Origin: Pseudomonas sp. GGS8
GTDB taxonomy: Bacteria; Pseudomonadota; Gammaproteobacteria; Pseudomonadales; Pseudomonadaceae
DNA length: 64,000 bases
Direction: 5' to 3'
Assembly: GCF_024168645.1 (NCBI RefSeq)
Contig: NZ_JALJWF010000001.1
Location: 1,355,001 to 1,419,000, forward strand
Under the pieces are notes generated by a model that worked only from the letters and a program-made list of their open reading frames with translations, was not told the DNA's origin and did no database searches. The first letter of the stretch is position 1, and each line of letters starts with the position of its first letter. Shown one piece after another: positions 47,143-53,125 of the stretch. The position numbers were made by a program, and so were the translations under genes.

Positions 47143-47352
47143 ACGAAATACCAGGGTCAAGGAGACCAGCATGCCGGCGCCAACGCCGTGACCAACATCG
47201 TCAGCTTCTACAAGCGCAACGAGCGCAACGAGCGCAACGAGCGCAAGGATGCCAAGACCTATGAATGCCACGCAGGGGCGATCATGGCTGGGGTTGCGTT
47301 GAGGGGGGATTTGGCGAAGGTTTAGTAACTCAAGACTCGCCCCCTGTTCCGA
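47143..47352 (+). other. Gap after the aryl polyene operon with a duplicated short element
   Basis: This gap holds copy 1 (47181-47256) of a sequence also found at 50750-50807. In the plus frame it reads AVTNIVSFYKRN followed by repeated NER and KDAK. A possible small gene starts at GTG 47188 (MTNIVSFYK...) and ends at the TAG at 47323-47325, about 45 codons, without a well-placed ribosome binding site. No terminator hairpin for the operon was recognised. Confidence 0.4.
47181..47256 (+). repeat. Copy 1 of a 58-bp duplicated element, expanded by a 9-bp tandem repeat
   Basis: Aligned with 50750-50807 it matches 51 of 58 positions after removing two extra 9-bp units. Four of the seven differences are silent third-position changes in the AVTNIV-FYK frame. 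The 9-bp unit GAGCGCAAC (Glu-Arg-Asn) occurs at 47221-47229 and 47230-47238, with a variant at 47239-47247. Confidence 0.75.
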
Positions 47353-48267
47353 TCAGTCTGGTTCTACCTGAGGTGCACGAATCTTCCCTTCTAATACCGC
47401 TGGGCCCTCGAACTCTGTCTGCAGTAGCGCCAAAAACGCCTCCCGAGCAGGGTGTCGACCTGAGTTTTCATGCCAGTAAAACAGGTTGTCGATACTCGTC
47501 AGCTCCGGGAATTCGTATCCTTGCCAACCTGCAGTGTGGCGGTATTGCTCATAGATCCCGCGAGGTACCAGCGAAACGCCGGCACCGGCACTGACACAGC
47601 CAACTATGGCGCCATAGCTTGCGATGCTGACAATCGGCAACACCTGGTCATGGCGCAACAGCCATTGTTCGAGCGCGAAGCGGTATGGGCAGCCTGGAGG
47701 CCACATGAAAATCTCCTTGCCTTGCAGATCCGCCGCCGTGCGTAAAGGCCCATGGGATGCGGACGCGATGAGGATTAAATCTTCACGGTACACCACTGCA
47801 CGCTTGAGCCCGGGGCGTTCAATGTTCACCGCCACGATCACCCCATCAAGTCGGTGATGCTGCGTATCATCCAGCAGTTGAGCCCAAGTGCCAGTGCTCA
47901 ACTCCAGCGACACCTGCGGGTACAGCGCATGGTACTTGGCCAATAACCGGGGCAGCCGTCCCGTAGCACTAGACTCAATGGCGCCAATGCGCAGAGGGCC
48001 GCCAGGCGTATTGGTAGGCGCTACCGCGCGCCGGGCCTCATCAGCCAAACCCAGGATTTTCGTCGCGTAATCAAGAAATACCTCCCCGGCAGGAGTGATC
48101 CGCAGCCCTCGACCGTCGCGGAAAAACAGTGGCGTGCCAAGCTCCCGCTCCAAGGACTTGAGGCGTGCGGTGATATTGGACGGCACGCAGTGCAACAACT
48201 CGGCGGCGCGCGCGATGCTGCCAAGGTCGTAAACCGTCTTGAACATGCGCAGTTGGGACAATTCCAT
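47353..48267 (-). CDS. LysR-family regulator of the di-iron oxidase module
   Basis: A 304-residue LysR-type regulator. The N-terminal winged helix is clear (LRMFKTVYDLGSIARAAELL...SNITARLKSLERELGTPLF) and the effector-binding domain begins near 90 (GPLRIGAIESSATGRLPRLL). It is divergent from the gene at 48400, and a T-N11-A dyad lies between them, so it probably controls that module in response to a small molecule. The effector is unknown. Confidence 0.92.
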   Translation of the reverse strand: MELSQLRMFKTVYDLGSIARAAELLHCVPSNITARLKSLERELGTPLFFRDGRGLRITPAGEVFLDYATKILGLADEARRAVAPTNTPGGPLRIGAIESSATGRLPRLLAKYHALYPQVSLELSTGTWAQLLDDTQHHRLDGVIVAVNIERPGLKRAVVYREDLILIASASHGPLRTAADLQGKEIFMWPPGCPYRFALEQWLLRHDQVLPIVSIASYGAIVGCVSAGAGVSLVPRGIYEQYRHTAGWQGYEFPELTSIDNLFYWHENSGRHPAREAFLALLQTEFEGPAVLEGKIRAPQVEPD

Positions 48268-48302
48268 GACTCACCCAGAGTGAATGTTTAGATCAGTTTA
48301 AG

Positions 48303-48315
48303 TCACTTGTAGTGA
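48303..48315. promoter_or_regulatory. Candidate LysR box
   Basis: TCACTTGTAGTGA is a 5-bp dyad with exactly the T-N11-A form of LysR sites. It lies in the 132-bp gap between the LysR gene and the di-iron oxidase-like gene. A wider GTCAC...GTGAC repeat surrounds it. Confidence 0.55.
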
Positions 48316-48399
48316 GGTGACGTGTTTTTGATACTCCAATTAGCACGCATCGCGTGACGCCGTCGCCCTTTCATATCCCTTGATGAGCAGGAGTTTTTT

Positions 48400-49170
48400 A
48401 TGGAGTTAGTTGAGCGAAAAATCCAGTCCCTCGCCGAAAGTGTGTTCACCCATAAAGCATTGAATAACGCGTTCTACCAACGATGGATGGGTGGCTCGCT
48501 CCCCCTCGCCGACGTTGAGGTGTTTGCTCGAAACTATCTGGCCCGTACCACGCAGACCTCTCGTATGGTTGCCCTGTCATTTATAGGCACTGACGACCTA
48601 TACGCTCAGGTCGAAATCGTCAAAAACCTGTACTCCGAGATGGGCTACGGCAACCCGGAAAAGGCCCACCTTGCCCTGCTGGAAAGTTATTTGATTGACC
48701 TTCTCAGTCGTCTCGCTGATCGACCGTACAGCATGGATGAACTTATGTCCGTGCCTGTGCTTGAAAGCACTATTGCGTTCAGCCGCGAGCAGTTGAGTCT
48801 TTATACCGACGGTGGTGACAGCAATAATCCGCGCCACGTGCTCGGCACATTGTTGGCTCAGGAGTGGCTGGCCTATTCGATGCTCACCCGTTTGTACGAA
48901 GGAGCACGTAACTATCAGCACCTGTATGCCAATAACGACGACTTTCATGAGCACTGCGAGTATTTCTACATCCACATCGGGGATGCAGAAAAAGAACACA
49001 AGATCCAGGCCGTAAAAGCCGCCACCCAGGAATGCACCACCGACCAACACATAGAGGAAGTCAGCACGTCATTCAACCGCTTCCTGGTCATCACCGAGCA
49101 GTACTGGAACGGCATAGCCCATGCCATGCCCAGCATGCAAAATCGTGTTGCGTCCGGGATGACGATTTGA
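48400..49170 (+). CDS. Haem-oxygenase-like di-iron oxidase candidate (PqqC/TenA-like fold)
   Basis: A 256-residue all-helical protein. EMGYGNPEKAHLALL contains Glu80 and His90 in the E-x-G-x-G-x5-H arrangement seen in UndA- and SznF-type oxidases. AQEWLAY supplies Glu155, and the last core helix EYFYIHIGDAEKEH has His192, Asp195 and His200. The usual final triad is H-x3-D-x2-H; here the spacing is different, so metal binding should be treated as probable, not proven. Such enzymes use two irons and O2 to cleave C-C bonds or N-oxygenate amino acids and fatty acids. The substrate is unknown. It is the first gene of a group with an exporter and a 2Fe-2S protein. Confidence 0.75.
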   Translation: MELVERKIQSLAESVFTHKALNNAFYQRWMGGSLPLADVEVFARNYLARTTQTSRMVALSFIGTDDLYAQVEIVKNLYSEMGYGNPEKAHLALLESYLIDLLSRLADRPYSMDELMSVPVLESTIAFSREQLSLYTDGGDSNNPRHVLGTLLAQEWLAYSMLTRLYEGARNYQHLYANNDDFHEHCEYFYIHIGDAEKEHKIQAVKAATQECTTDQHIEEVSTSFNRFLVITEQYWNGIAHAMPSMQNRVASGMTI

Positions 49171-50066
49171 TGAATACAAGGCCCAGCGTAAAAGTCGCTT
49201 TGGCGGCGGTTTTTGTAATCCTTTGCTGGGCCTATTCCCCCATTGGAATCCACATCGGGCTAAAGGCTTACGAGCCCGGTCATCTCGCGCTGGTGCGATT
49301 TCTCATCGCCTCAACGTTCATGGCCGGGGTCGCGTTGGTGGTGCGTATTTCCCTGCCCCGCCTTAAAGACCTGCCACTGCTGGCCGTGCTGGGATTCCTC
49401 GCCGTCAGCCTGCATCACATAGCCCTCAACTATGGCCAACAAGGCGTTAGCGCCGGGGCCGCCAGCGTACTGGCACAATCCACGCCGCTGTTCAGCACGC
49501 TATTGGCGCATTTCGCGTTCAAGGACCGGGTGAACGGCTGGCAATGGATCTGTGTGCTGTGCGGCCTACTCGGTGCCGCTGTGGTAGTCACCGGGGACCG
49601 TGGTTTTGGTGAGCTGGACGCGCACGGGCTGCTGATCCTGTTGGCGGCGCTGTCCTGGAGTCTGTATTTCGCCTTGCAAAAACGCCACTCCCAACGTTAC
49701 GACGGGCTGACGATGGTGTGTTACACCATTTGGTCCGGCACGGTGCTGCTCCTTGTGTATGTCCCGGGCCTGTGGAGCGAAGCGCAAAACGCTTCAACTT
49801 CGGCCAACTTGGCGGTGCTCATTCTGGGCATCTTCCCCAGCGCCCTTGCGTACCTCGCCTGGGCATACGTACTGGCGCACAGCAATGTGAGCCGCGCCTC
49901 CATTTCGCTTTACCTGATACCGCCCACAGCGATGTTGATGGCCTCGTTGGTTCTGAGTGAACGCCCTTCGGCCATGGTCATCGTCGGAACGATCATTGTG
50001 CTGACGAGCGTACTCGCCCTCAATCTGGAACCATCGCAAGTCGCGGTTCCTGCCGACAAAGTTTGA
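49170..50066 (+). CDS. EamA/DMT-family transporter
   Basis: 298 residues with ten hydrophobic helices in two EamA halves (ALAAVFVILCWAYSPIGIHI; later LLILLAALSWSLYFALQKRH; IFPSALAYLAWAYVLAHSNVSRAS). Family members usually export amino acids or metabolites. ATG 49170 overlaps the stop of the oxidase-like gene by 1 nt, so the pair is coupled, and it likely exports the product, or a toxic analogue, of that enzyme. Confidence 0.9.
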   Translation: MNTRPSVKVALAAVFVILCWAYSPIGIHIGLKAYEPGHLALVRFLIASTFMAGVALVVRISLPRLKDLPLLAVLGFLAVSLHHIALNYGQQGVSAGAASVLAQSTPLFSTLLAHFAFKDRVNGWQWICVLCGLLGAAVVVTGDRGFGELDAHGLLILLAALSWSLYFALQKRHSQRYDGLTMVCYTIWSGTVLLLVYVPGLWSEAQNASTSANLAVLILGIFPSALAYLAWAYVLAHSNVSRASISLYLIPPTAMLMASLVLSERPSAMVIVGTIIVLTSVLALNLEPSQVAVPADKV

Positions 50067-50085
50067 ACAGAGATCGTGACCACCT

Positions 50086-50397
50086 ATGAATGATGCAGAA
50101 AATCCGACCCTGGCCTACGAACACCATGTGCTGATCTGCACCAACCTGCGCCCTGATGGTCGCCGTAGTTGCTCGGGCTCAGGCGCTCATGAATTGCTCA
50201 GCGCAGCAAAACGCAAGCTCGCCAAAATGGGTGCACCAGGAACATCGCGCGCCAACGCATCGGGCTGCCTTGGCCGCTGCGACCACGGCCCGGTCATGGT
50301 GATTTACCCAGCTAACCTGTGGTTCTCGTGCAAGACGCCGCAACAGGTTGAACGCATTCTCAATCAACACCTCTTCCGTCCCGATAAGCCGTTGTGA
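50086..50397 (+). CDS. Thioredoxin-like 2Fe-2S ferredoxin domain protein
   Basis: A 103-residue protein of the (2Fe-2S) ferredoxin family related to the NuoE fold. VLICTNLRPDGRRSC supplies two cysteines about 11 residues apart, and ASGCLGRCDHGPVMVIYP supplies the C-x3-C pair with the typical following HGP. It could deliver electrons to the neighbouring di-iron protein, which would otherwise need an external reductase. It begins 19 nt after the transporter stop in the same direction. Confidence 0.87.
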   Translation: MNDAENPTLAYEHHVLICTNLRPDGRRSCSGSGAHELLSAAKRKLAKMGAPGTSRANASGCLGRCDHGPVMVIYPANLWFSCKTPQQVERILNQHLFRPDKPL

Positions 50398-50426
50398 CCC
50401 AAGTGGCCTAAGCAGGAATCCACGCC

Positions 50427-50705
50427 ATGACCTGGACAGATGAAGACATGCGCATCGCCCAATGGATGTTGGCCGAATACCGTAAACAAGACTATCTACC
50501 GCAAGCCTTCGCCGTGCGGGAGATCCGTCTGATGTTCGGTGAAGCTCATGTGTACCAAAATCGCCACGGCAACTGGGCCGTGAACAAGCCGATCCTCGAA
50601 GCCTTTAAAGCACTGACTGCTGAGTACGTGGTATGGAGCCGAAGCTTTCAACGATGGAGGCAAAGAACCGCACAAGATCCGGTAGGCATACGCGTGAGCC
50701 GCTGA
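50427..50705 (+). CDS. Small protein of unknown function (DUF6953-like by appearance)
   Basis: 92 residues: an acidic helical N-terminus (MTWTDEDMRIAQWMLAEYRK), then AFAVREIRLMFGEAHVYQNRHGNWAVNKPILEAF, which looks like a small winged-helix or DUF6953-type fold, then a basic tail. AGGA lies 9 nt before the ATG. It is the last gene of the oxidase/exporter/ferredoxin group. After its TGA the same frame stays open through the duplicated element to 50862. Confidence 0.7.
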   Translation: MTWTDEDMRIAQWMLAEYRKQDYLPQAFAVREIRLMFGEAHVYQNRHGNWAVNKPILEAFKALTAEYVVWSRSFQRWRQRTAQDPVGIRVSR

Positions 50706-50926
50706 CAGGATATCCCGACGGCAATCATCAGTCTGCATCAAACGACAAACAACGCTGTGACCAACATCGTCTGTTTCTACAAAAGCAATGAACGCAAGGA
50801 TGCCAAGAAACAAAAGGAAAGCGGAGCATGTCATTTCGGAAACGTCCCACAGCCAGAGTTTTAGCTTCCCGGTAGGGTCCATGTTCCCCAGCGACATGTC
50901 GGGATTACCCCAAGGATGAGAACAAC
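50706..50926 (+). other. Gap before queC holding copy 2 of the duplicated element
   Basis: Contains 50750-50807 (see repeat). A possible 35-codon gene runs from GTG 50757 (MTNIVCFYKSNERKDAKK...) to the TAG at 50862-50864. There is no obvious ribosome binding site. AAGGA at 50912-50916 serves queC. No preQ1-riboswitch pattern was recognised. Confidence 0.4.
50750..50807 (+). repeat. Copy 2 of the 58-bp duplicated element
   Basis: Matches copy 1 (47181-47256) at 51 of 58 positions in the same orientation, reading NNAVTNIVCFYKSNERKDAK. The two copies bracket the LysR/oxidase/exporter/2Fe-2S group. Confidence 0.75.
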
Positions 50927-51625
50927 ATGAATAACAAGGCAGTCATTGTTTTTAGTGGCGGACAAGACTCAACAACCTGTTTGATCCATGCATTGCAAAC
51001 TTATGATGAAATACACTGCATTACGTTTGATTACGGTCAGCGCCATCGCGCAGAAATTGAAGTGGCGCAACAGCTTTCGGCAAAACTTGGTGTGACAGTG
51101 CACAAGGTGCTCGACGCTTCATTATTAAATGAGTTAGCGATCAGCAGCCTGACTCGCGACAACATTCCCGTCCCAACCACCGCCAGTTCAGGGGGGAGCC
51201 TGCCAAACACTTTCGTACCCGGTCGAAATATTCTTTTTTTAACGCTGGCTTCTATTTATGCCTATCAAGTTGGCGCCACATCTGTAATCACAGGTGTTTG
51301 TGAAACCGACTTTTCAGGCTATCCGGATTGCAGGGATGAATTCATCAAAGCGATGAATACAGCCGTTGAATTGGGGATGGACTATAAACTACGAATTGAA
51401 ACACCGCTCATGTGGCTGAACAAGTCTGAAACTTGGGCTCTGGCCGATCATTATGGAAAGCTTGAATTGATTCAGCACCACACACTGACTTGCTACAACG
51501 GAGTAAAAGGCAGTGGATGTGGTGACTGTGAGGCGTGCAATCTTCGAGCAAAAGGCTTTAATGTGTATCTCGAAAACAAATCAACGGTGATGAAAAGCCT
51601 GAAGGAAAAACTGCAAATTAAATAG
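50927..51625 (+). CDS. queC: 7-cyano-7-deazaguanine (preQ0) synthase, QueC family
   Basis: A 232-residue Que[19 protein letters not shown] is the PP-loop that activates the carboxylate with ATP, FDYGQRH follows, and [21 protein letters not shown] holds the four zinc-binding cysteines. QueC converts 7-carboxy-7-deazaguanine and ammonia to preQ0, the precursor of queuosine and of other deazapurines. No queD, queE or folE genes are near. Codons are clearly more AT-rich than in the surrounding chromosome, which suggests transfer and a copy additional to the housekeeping queC. Confidence 0.93.
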
Positions 51626-51636
51626 CGTTTAACCGT

Positions 51637-51665
51637 GCAGGGGGGAGCCTCATCCCCTGCCTTTT
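51637..51665. terminator. Terminator between queC and the convergent VUT gene
   Basis: GCAGGGG at 51637-51643 pairs with CCCCTGC at 51654-51660 over a 10-nt loop, followed by CTTTT. It lies 12 nt after the queC stop and touches the end of the opposing gene. Confidence 0.75.
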
Positions 51666-52536
51666 ACGCAGCCTGTGTTCCAGCCACATACCTCTTAAAC
51701 AAGGATCTTGCTCCATACGCAGGCAAAACGTTAAAAACAGCGAAACACATTTTTATGGCGATCTGGACATAAACGATATTAAGTAACTCCGCATTCGTCA
51801 TGGTGCCGTAAAACGCAACAAAACAAAAAATAAAACTATCTATTATCACCGCAAAAAACGTACTTAAAAACACTCGCAAAAATAACAACCTTGCATTCGT
51901 AAGCTCCTTTATTTTGCTCAGCAAAAATGAATTTACATATTCAGAAAAAATAAAAGACACTGAGGATGCTATCAACACCGAGGACACGTGCGTCATGACC
52001 TCGCCGTAAGGCGCATCAAGCTTCCAACCTGACAAGCCAGGAAGATAGCTGGTCGCACTCAGCAAAACAGTAATGAGCGCATTACTTGCGAATGCAAACA
52101 ATATGGCTTTTCTTGCCAATCTAAGACCATAAAACTCATTTAACATATCGACTATTAAAAATGTCAGCGGGTACAGAAAAACTCCAGGCGTCACGACAAC
52201 ACCAAGCAATCCAATATACACAAGCTTTGTCGCGGCAATATTAGTGAAGATATATAGTGCAAACAGCAGTAGATTGAGAGCGACATAAACCATCCACGAC
52301 CTTTCATGCCGATCATTTACCTCATACGCTGTCAATGCAGCTCCGCCAGAATAAAACTTCCTGTACACCGACTTCATCTCTGACCTGCTTAAATCATCCA
52401 GTATTTCACTTTTCAATAAATCATCGAGCCTAACTTTGATGACCTTTCCCGTTGAGACAATCATGACAACGGCAAGTCCCTTACTATTCTCAAACCCTAA
52501 CAGCTTATACTTTTTGTTTTCCGAAACACTATCCAT
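51664..52536 (-). CDS. VUT-family (YhhQ-like) queuosine-precursor transporter with N-terminal extension
   Basis: 290 residues. About 80 N-terminal residues are soluble (KYKLLGFENSKGLAVVMIVS...VRLDDLLKSEILDDL) and precede a six-helix membrane domain with the VUT/YhhQ landmarks TNIAATKLVYIG, YPLTFLIVDMLNEFYG and ARKAILFAF. YhhQ imports preQ0/preQ1, matching the adjacent queC. The extension is absent from E. coli YhhQ and may bind a ligand or partner. The start overlaps the regulator stop by 8 nt, so the two form an operon. AT-rich. Confidence 0.87.
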   Translation of the reverse strand: MDSVSENKKYKLLGFENSKGLAVVMIVSTGKVIKVRLDDLLKSEILDDLSRSEMKSVYRKFYSGGAALTAYEVNDRHERSWMVYVALNLLLFALYIFTNIAATKLVYIGLLGVVVTPGVFLYPLTFLIVDMLNEFYGLRLARKAILFAFASNALITVLLSATSYLPGLSGWKLDAPYGEVMTHVSSVLIASSVSFIFSEYVNSFLLSKIKELTNARLLFLRVFLSTFFAVIIDSFIFCFVAFYGTMTNAELLNIVYVQIAIKMCFAVFNVLPAYGARSLFKRYVAGTQAA

Positions 52537-53125
52537 TGAACCTCTCCCCCATTAACTCCCCAATTACAAGAACAACGTCAGAGCAACAGCAAGGTTCACT
52601 GGTTATGGACAACCGTTTCGTCGTCTTGTCGTACACCAATTTTTCTTTATTGCTACTCGGCAAGCCCTTTTTAACTATTAACAAATCCCCCGGATCATTT
52701 ACACCGCTAATTTCATTTTCCAGAAGCACACCGATTAAATTGCAGGCCGTACCGAAGTAGTAAGTCAGCGGATGGGTTGCGACCAATTCGCCAATCCTCT
52801 TGCCAAGACTCTGCTCAAGCAAGCTCTCTTTAATAATAGGGACAGCTGCTGGGTTCATATTGCCTTGCAAAGATACGCTATTTTCTATGATTTCCTTTTC
52901 TTCAAAATCAACAGTTTCTATCTCTTTATAAGACACTCCAAAAAAATCAGAAATCTTGCGAATTGTAGATTGTTGAACATTCACCACCCTCCCTTCCAGG
53001 ATATTGTATATCGTAGTTCGGGTTAGCCCACTTGCATTGCACAAGGACAGCTGCGTCTCCCCACGACTTTTTATCAAGTATTTAATATTATTCTTCAAGT
53101 TTTCTGTTTTTTCTTTCTTATACAT
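52529..53125 (-). CDS. XRE-type regulator linked to the queC/transporter block
   Basis: 198 residues. Residues about 8-65 are a Cro/CI helix-turn-helix (NNIKYLIKSRGETQLSLCNASGLTRTTIYNILEGR). A C-terminal domain of about 110 residues ends SEPCCCSDVVLVIGELMGER, with three adjacent cysteines that could sense metal or redox state. It probably controls the transporter gene downstream, and perhaps queC, in response to a deazapurine; that is inference. The gene is markedly AT-rich, and the 413-bp region upstream even more so. Confidence 0.85.
   Translation of the reverse strand: MYKKEKTENLKNNIKYLIKSRGETQLSLCNASGLTRTTIYNILEGRVVNVQQSTIRKISDFFGVSYKEIETVDFEEKEIIENSVSLQGNMNPAAVPIIKESLLEQSLGKRIGELVATHPLTYYFGTACNLIGVLLENEISGVNDPGDLLIVKKGLPSSNKEKLVYDKTTKRLSITSEPCCCSDVVLVIGELMGERFNG

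Follow-up and report, generated by a model that had tools for sequence, protein, structure and literature searches.

A putative haem-oxygenase-like di-iron oxidase gene set between a divergent regulator and an exporter in Pseudomonas sp. GGS8: a candidate route for producing and exporting an unusual amino acid

A 64,000-nucleotide stretch of DNA from Pseudomonas sp. GGS8 (contig NZ_JALJWF010000001.1, positions 1,355,001 to 1,419,000; hereafter the window, with positions counted from its first letter), belonging to a 6.72 Mb genome in a single contig, carries a gene for a putative haem-oxygenase-like di-iron oxidase (HDO) between the gene of a divergent LysR-type regulator and that of an EamA-family exporter. 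The position of the HDO gene between a regulator and an amino-acid-type exporter suggests a very small make-and-secrete system for an unusual amino acid. With moderate confidence we consider it probable that the HDO oxidises an amino-acid-like metabolite, that a small [2Fe-2S] protein encoded downstream donates the electrons, that the EamA protein exports the product and that the LysR protein controls the set. The main new point suggested by our comparisons is evolutionary, namely that the HDO gene was set between the partners of regulator–exporter pairs which existed before it. The features of the module are the following:

47353..48267, minus strand: LysR-type regulator (Pfam HTH_1 and LysR_substrate), divergent from the four-gene operon
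48271..48283, no strand: candidate LysR site, T-N11-A dyad TCACCCAGAGTGA, the same in the window and loci L007-L013, altered in L014
48303..48315, no strand: candidate LysR site, T-N11-A dyad TCACTTGTAGTGA with perfect 5-base arms, the same in the window and loci L007-L014
48400..49170, plus strand: predicted HDO, 256 amino acids (aa), likely ligands E80, H90, E155, H192, E197 and H200
49170..50066, plus strand: EamA-family exporter of the drug/metabolite superfamily, 298 aa (PF00892, 146.9 bits), overlapping the HDO gene by one base
50086..50397, plus strand: thioredoxin-like [2Fe-2S] ferredoxin, 103 aa, proposed electron donor (PF01257, 25.0 bits, cut-off 24.8)
50427..50705, plus strand: DUF6953 small protein, 92 aa (PF22266, 79.1 bits), membership in the module uncertain

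All five genes reported in an earlier note on this DNA were confirmed with their strands. The overlap of the second operon gene with the first, also reported there, amounts to one shared base if the EamA start is at 49170, and a start near this position fits the point where the alignments of relatives begin. The span considered in that note, 48268-50705, opens just past the LysR gene and closes at the DUF6953 stop.

The context of the HDO gene was compared over 40 loci, 39 of which came from a scan of genome contigs and one from a plasmid (42% identity); the scan demanded two conserved peptides, its results include many near copies, and the myxobacterial sequences P0043 and P0044 were outside its coverage. 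In 26 of the 40 loci the HDO gene is followed, on its own strand and with a start within 400 bases, by an exporter gene of the drug/metabolite superfamily (in L045 it was counted by partial matches only); a divergent LysR or CGNR gene lies upstream in 25 (as a fragment in L022), and both features occur together in 21. In actinobacteria the HDO gene occupies the corresponding place between the genes of an unrelated regulator, a CGNR zinc-finger protein, and of an RhtA-like exporter, for which RhtA is the best NCBIfam match at a score below the cut-off (141 versus 354 bits); in L029, L032, L033 and L038 the exporter is present and no upstream CGNR match was found. Both the gene order and the tie of HDO and exporter thus recur in other genomes, whereas the fixed four-gene set envisaged in the earlier note was not borne out, the wide core being regulator, HDO and exporter. 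A fixed module of four or five genes was rejected, as DUF6953 occurs apart from HDO and the close ferredoxin is specific to one clade.

The regulator–exporter pairs also exist without the oxidase. EamA relatives at E<=1e-60 are encoded in 126 of 298 Pseudomonas genomes, in only five of which an HDO of at least 58% was present. In each of 12 Pseudomonas regions lacking a close HDO, a LysR homologue (58-89%) adjoins an EamA homologue (61-85%) in divergent orientation, and these regions gave no HDO, ferredoxin or DUF6953 match. As for the CGNR–RhtA-like pair, its exporter was found at E<=1e-70 in 4 of 199 Streptomyces genomes; the three besides the query yielded no HDO match (in a search without a positive control among the three), and all three regions have adjacent, divergent CGNR and exporter genes and no nitroreductase match. 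Both in the LysR tree and in the EamA tree, pairs that carry an HDO occupy two separate positions, each of them closer to HDO-less pairs; on the starred branches two changes or more are required, and a single change suffices in 0% of 200 bootstrap trees. The cassette is best explained by insertion of the HDO gene into regulator–exporter pairs, and this is the direction of evolutionary change that we infer. In Pseudomonas and in actinobacteria the HDO gene lies exactly between a divergent regulator and an exporter, the regulators being unrelated. Such unrelated pairs in two phyla flank the same enzyme family, and we regard this placement as the strongest evidence that the product is exported. 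It adds evidence beyond single operons for an exported, amino-acid-like product.

The assignment of the enzyme to the HDO superfamily, in whose members the core helices supply three histidine and three carboxylate ligands (PMC13108848), is supported by the predicted haem-oxygenase-like helical fold and by the conservation of all six di-iron ligand positions. The E-x-G-x-G-x5-H signature was found as E80-M-G82-Y-G84-NPEKA-H90. Among 125 aligned sequences (the window protein, the 120 listed of 349 homologues and four locus proteins), E80 is conserved in 114, H90 in 117, E155 in 121, H192 in 124, E197 in 120 and H200 in 119. At least one of the six positions is changed in 20 sequences, while most, including the window protein, keep them all. 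Residue 195, previously taken for the acidic ligand of the last helix, is Glu in 76 of these sequences, Asp in 45, Asn in 3 and Ala in one, the HDO of L046. Since 120 of 125 sequences retain E197, and since the L046 protein with A195 still has E197 and H200, D195 is disfavoured, E197 appears to be the acid ligand, and the pattern of this helix is better placed at H192-x4-E197-x2-H200. The non-standard spacing of the last helix, also claimed previously, was borne out by the profile alignment with BesC, though with E197 as the acid.

PF14518 matches all 64 family members; the genome to which the window belongs has six PF14518 matches in total, one of them in a 740-aa open frame and one with an internal stop. 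The profile search against solved chains, at E up to 10, returned nine matches with BesC as the best. BesC (4-chloro-allylglycine synthase, an HDO; 7TWA) is also the nearest solved fold, followed by a CADD-like protein, HrmI and CADD, but these four are within 1 Z unit and amount to a tie. The window HDO differs from BesC in its longer first motif (E-x9-H) and in one more residue between H192 and E197, shows 18% identity to it and scores 20.4 bits with the BesC model NF042919 (cut-off 500); neither a halogenase nor another bes-type gene is among the five module genes. With the model of CADD, the self-sacrificing p-aminobenzoate synthase (TIGR04305), the score is 28.8 bits against a cut-off of 200, and the profile alignment needs gaps in both CADD and BesC between Glu and His of the first motif. 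HrmI, a lysine N-oxygenase, superimposes with a root-mean-square deviation of 2.9 at 14% identity and gave no profile match at E up to 10. These data support the previously raised idea of a new subfamily: judged by sequence, the enzyme represents its own HDO subfamily with shifted ligand spacing, for which no characterised member was found, and its metal content is predicted from the ligand positions. According to a 2026 review, the reaction has been validated for no more than about a dozen HDOs (PMC13108848).

The substrate class and the export of the product are suggested by several lines of comparison. Divergent LysR–exporter pairs, among them NCgl0581-SerE, LysG-LysE and ArgP-ArgO, function in the export of amino acids, NCgl0581 being divergent from SerE, which is itself an EamA homologue; in the available part of that report no oxidase is mentioned between these genes (PMC7260847), whereas the module described here has the HDO at this very place. 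Beta-alanine and lysine are among the compounds exported by EamA proteins (PMC11005379, PMC9048822), and one such protein, AexA, exports beta-alanine and 2,3-diaminopropionate (PMC11005379), while the characterised HDOs act mostly on fatty or amino acids (PMC13108848). On the Streptomyces plasmid (L046, 5851-16728) a LysE-family translocator, diaminopimelate decarboxylase (lysA, above cut-off), a cystathionine-gamma-synthase-like enzyme and the HDO are encoded, together with two ATP-grasp genes, a nitroreductase fragment, a major facilitator superfamily (MFS) transporter, a methyltransferase and an isochorismatase-family hydrolase, and this cluster looks like a peptide or amino-acid pathway. 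In L026 a putative aminotransferase-like open frame, so read from its letters, follows the HDO gene. Because of the LysR–exporter pairs, the EamA exporters, the HDO substrates and these neighbours in L046 and L026, an amino-acid substrate is favoured; lysine or a relative would be the first candidate, which we name with low confidence.

In the proposed mechanism, the di-iron HDO would use O2 to oxidise a small metabolite, probably of amino-acid type, the 2Fe-2S protein would feed electrons into its di-iron site, and the EamA exporter would pump the product out of the cell. The LysR protein would sense the substrate or the product at the T-N11-A sites and turn on HDO and exporter jointly, and, with the HDO gene placed between regulator and exporter, one promoter would drive both enzyme and exporter.

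The best NCBIfam match of the LysR protein is PtrR, at 253 bits and below the cut-off of 400. The single T-N11-A dyad reported between the LysR and HDO genes is present, but two conserved dyads were found instead of one (the comparison of loci demanded four of five arm bases): each of the eight close loci L007-L014 carries the second exactly as it stands in the window, and each except L014 so carries the first. A third dyad of the window is unconserved. None of the five loci L015-L018 and L020 has such a dyad, and L019 has only unrelated ones.

The 2Fe-2S protein passes the PF01257 threshold narrowly, and its C18, C29, C61 and C65, which we take to match the four-cysteine ligand pattern of PF01257 ferredoxins, are present in all eight homologues found. 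Seven of these space the last pair as C-x3-C, and P0125 has three extra residues there. The eight relatives (clusters), seven of them at 76-95%, came from a search of 5.8 billion proteins that finds only relatives with common short exact words. The gene tracks the HDO gene, both being present at 87% or more in exactly the same 4 of 298 Pseudomonas genomes, among which the next-best ferredoxin match is at 36%; the close gene is confined to one Pseudomonas clade. A redox gene lies downstream in 16 of the 40 HDO loci, and the kind differs by lineage, with eight ferredoxins (the 2Fe-2S protein in Pseudomonas) and eight nitroreductases (in actinobacteria; a fragment in L046). Electron transfer from the 2Fe-2S protein to the HDO, which these associations suggest, has a precedent in MboA-MboB of mangotoxin biosynthesis, where an HDO acetylenase and its dedicated reductase are likewise encoded in one operon (PMC13185094). 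MboB, however, is a flavin and Fe2S2 reductase and the module has a small 2Fe-2S protein; besides, the MboA substrate is a peptide made by ATP-grasp ligases, and no ATP-grasp gene is among the module genes. Should the 2Fe-2S protein prove to be the donor, HDOs would have dedicated redox partners of two kinds, MboB and this one.

Several observations weigh against the proposed reading. Fourteen of the 40 HDO loci have no adjacent exporter, and many of the 26 that have one are near copies of one another. The sequence of L017 and L020 stops 235 and 84 bases past the HDO gene (in L017 its end lies near what is presumably a 5S rRNA gene), L034-L037 have an RhtA-like gene and its CGNR partner nearby in opposite orientation, and no nearby match to these exporters was found in L019, L021, L022, L026, L039-L041 and L046, L026 and L046 carrying other transporter genes. 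In the HDO tree the labelled LysR–EamA rows need only one change (26 rows are unlabelled), and for this reason one early insertion followed by several losses is possible as well as two insertions. No ferredoxin match was obtained in L015-L022, and, according to the review, the HDOs studied so far need no protein effector like those of ferritin-like oxygenases (PMC13108848). The EamA gene of L061 (G108) has an apparent frameshift, which may be an assembly error, while its HDO, LysR and ferredoxin matches are whole. Finally, E80 is replaced by Lys in 10 of the 125 aligned sequences, also in strains whose operon is otherwise intact; the replacement was seen in L010, L013 and L014, where the LysR, EamA and ferredoxin matches are intact, and in P0010, P0014-P0017, P0020-P0023 and P0033.

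The foremost alternative, which we hold to be doubtful although worth attention, is detoxification: the LysR protein would sense a toxic amino-acid analogue released by neighbours, EamA would expel it and the HDO would destroy it, thereby adding a chemical arm to an efflux response. The LysR–EamA pair does occur by itself in many Pseudomonas, as would be expected of an independent export response, EamA exporters can guard against toxic amino acids (PMC11005379), and the HDO-like DtpC is protective in oxidative stress (PMC13232832). On the other hand, the characterised HDOs are mainly biosynthetic (PMC13108848), and the 42% relative in L046 resides in the biosynthetic-looking cluster with lysA, the cystathionine-gamma-synthase-like gene and two ATP-grasp genes.

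A lysine-specific variant of the preferred reading, in which the HDO fragments or oxidises lysine in the manner of BesC or HrmI and allylglycine, a nitro or hydroxylamino acid or a similar compound is exported, seems unlikely to us. It is in line with BesC as the best profile match, with the four best folds listed above and with the LysE-family translocator and diaminopimelate decarboxylase genes close to the HDO gene in L046, but the structural alignment with BesC has an identity of 18% only, the top folds are tied, no lysine gene is among the five module genes, and L046 forms a deep, long branch.

It is rather improbable that the HDO gene is an idle passenger in a variable site whose activity is often lost, though some loci look as if this were so. 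Besides E80K with intact neighbours, the L013 HDO also lacks H90, and its nonsynonymous divergence (dN) is raised to 0.19 in residues 44-95, versus 0.035 after and 0.052 before them; L010 and L014 share a branch of the HDO tree from which L013 stands apart. L022 has an HDO at 77%, no EamA match and LysR only in fragments, and the locus in the window is flanked by gene remnants. HDO activity may thus have been lost often and by more than one route. Against idleness, the six ligands are intact in the window protein and most of its relatives, and the HDO is under purifying selection, the ratio of nonsynonymous to synonymous divergence (dN/dS) over residues 96-256 being 0.07-0.23 versus 12 relatives and typically about 0.1 (the values are identical within two pairs, L008/L060 and L014/L062, each of which probably represents one strain). 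Neither would drift be expected to produce the recurrent regulator–HDO–exporter placement.

A metal-free PqqC- or TenA-type enzyme of cofactor metabolism is hardly credible, as the window HDO does not group with either by sequence and such an assignment was rejected from the profile results and the conserved di-iron ligands: neither type is among the nine solved-chain matches (8w1q, named "PQQ biosynthesis protein C", is FlcD), the window HDO has no PF03070 (TENA_THI-4) match at E<=0.1, and only 5 of the 64 family members match this model, weakly (best E 3e-4), while all match PF14518.

Returning to the make-and-secrete reading, the whole candidate pathway may comprise just an oxidase, an exporter, a regulator and an electron donor, which would allow a direct search for its substrate and product by metabolite comparison. 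Going further, we tentatively propose, as a possibility only, that a portable HDO has repeatedly entered resident amino-acid regulator–exporter pairs of two phyla with unrelated partners, turning them into one-enzyme factories of non-protein amino acids, with its own redox donor (2Fe-2S protein or nitroreductase) brought along or recruited, and that the reaction is one undescribed for HDOs. Strains losing E80 might then keep a regulated exporter, as immune non-producers. Such a gene set is not described in the titles or abstract openings of the open-licence PMC literature, among the matches listed.

Further observations concern particular loci and the mobility of the gene. In Parafrankia EUN1f (L031, 7923-9680) a single open frame of 585 aa spans the HDO and the RhtA-like exporter; it was not accepted as a real fusion, since a stop separates the two genes in the near relatives L025 and L030. 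The HDOs of Actinomadura L039-L041 have lost E197 and H200 together and retain an acid at position 195; by analogy with an HDO lacking two last-helix ligands, which binds one metal (PMC13108848), they might bind one metal too. In L039 the next genes after the HDO gene encode a DUF3616 protein and an acyl-CoA dehydrogenase, with homologues in L041. Plasmid carriage was seen in one record only, the 42% relative; 18 pattern matches in viral contigs included no relative, and the five module proteins have no match at E<=0.001 to the PADLOC phage-defence models.

The module is bordered by two coding remnants:

47158..47322, plus strand: left remnant, C-terminal coding tail of the small gene 3' of fabF in L101 (73% over 55 aligned aa versus the 148-aa L101 gene)
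50712..50846, plus strand: right remnant, from the same family as the left one (53% across 49 aligned aa versus the 148-aa L101 gene)

In L101 (G047), which lacks a close HDO, the fabF homologue is followed by the intact 148-aa gene. Because coding tails of this family flank both sides, the module is taken to sit within the remains of the region of the 148-aa gene after fabF. The 26-base core shared by the remnants has only two occurrences in the genome with up to three mismatches allowed; a target-site duplication was rejected as the origin of this direct repeat, which is the coding tail of the L101 gene. The close loci L007-L014 retain genes of the fabF-like cluster upstream, and L015, L016 and L018 have different surroundings. 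DUF6953 is encoded in 8 of 199 Pseudomonas genomes, four of which lack a close HDO; in L009 and L011 it is truncated (only a short N-terminal match); no literature on it was found in open-licence PMC, among the matches listed. Directly after the module (50927-53125) the window contains a QueC gene (above cut-off), a queuosine-precursor transporter gene and a Cro-type regulator gene. QueC is also matched in L007, L010, L011, L012 and L014 but was not found in the available stretches of L008, L009 and L013, and, owing to this patchiness among close loci, the QueC block looks like separate variable cargo.

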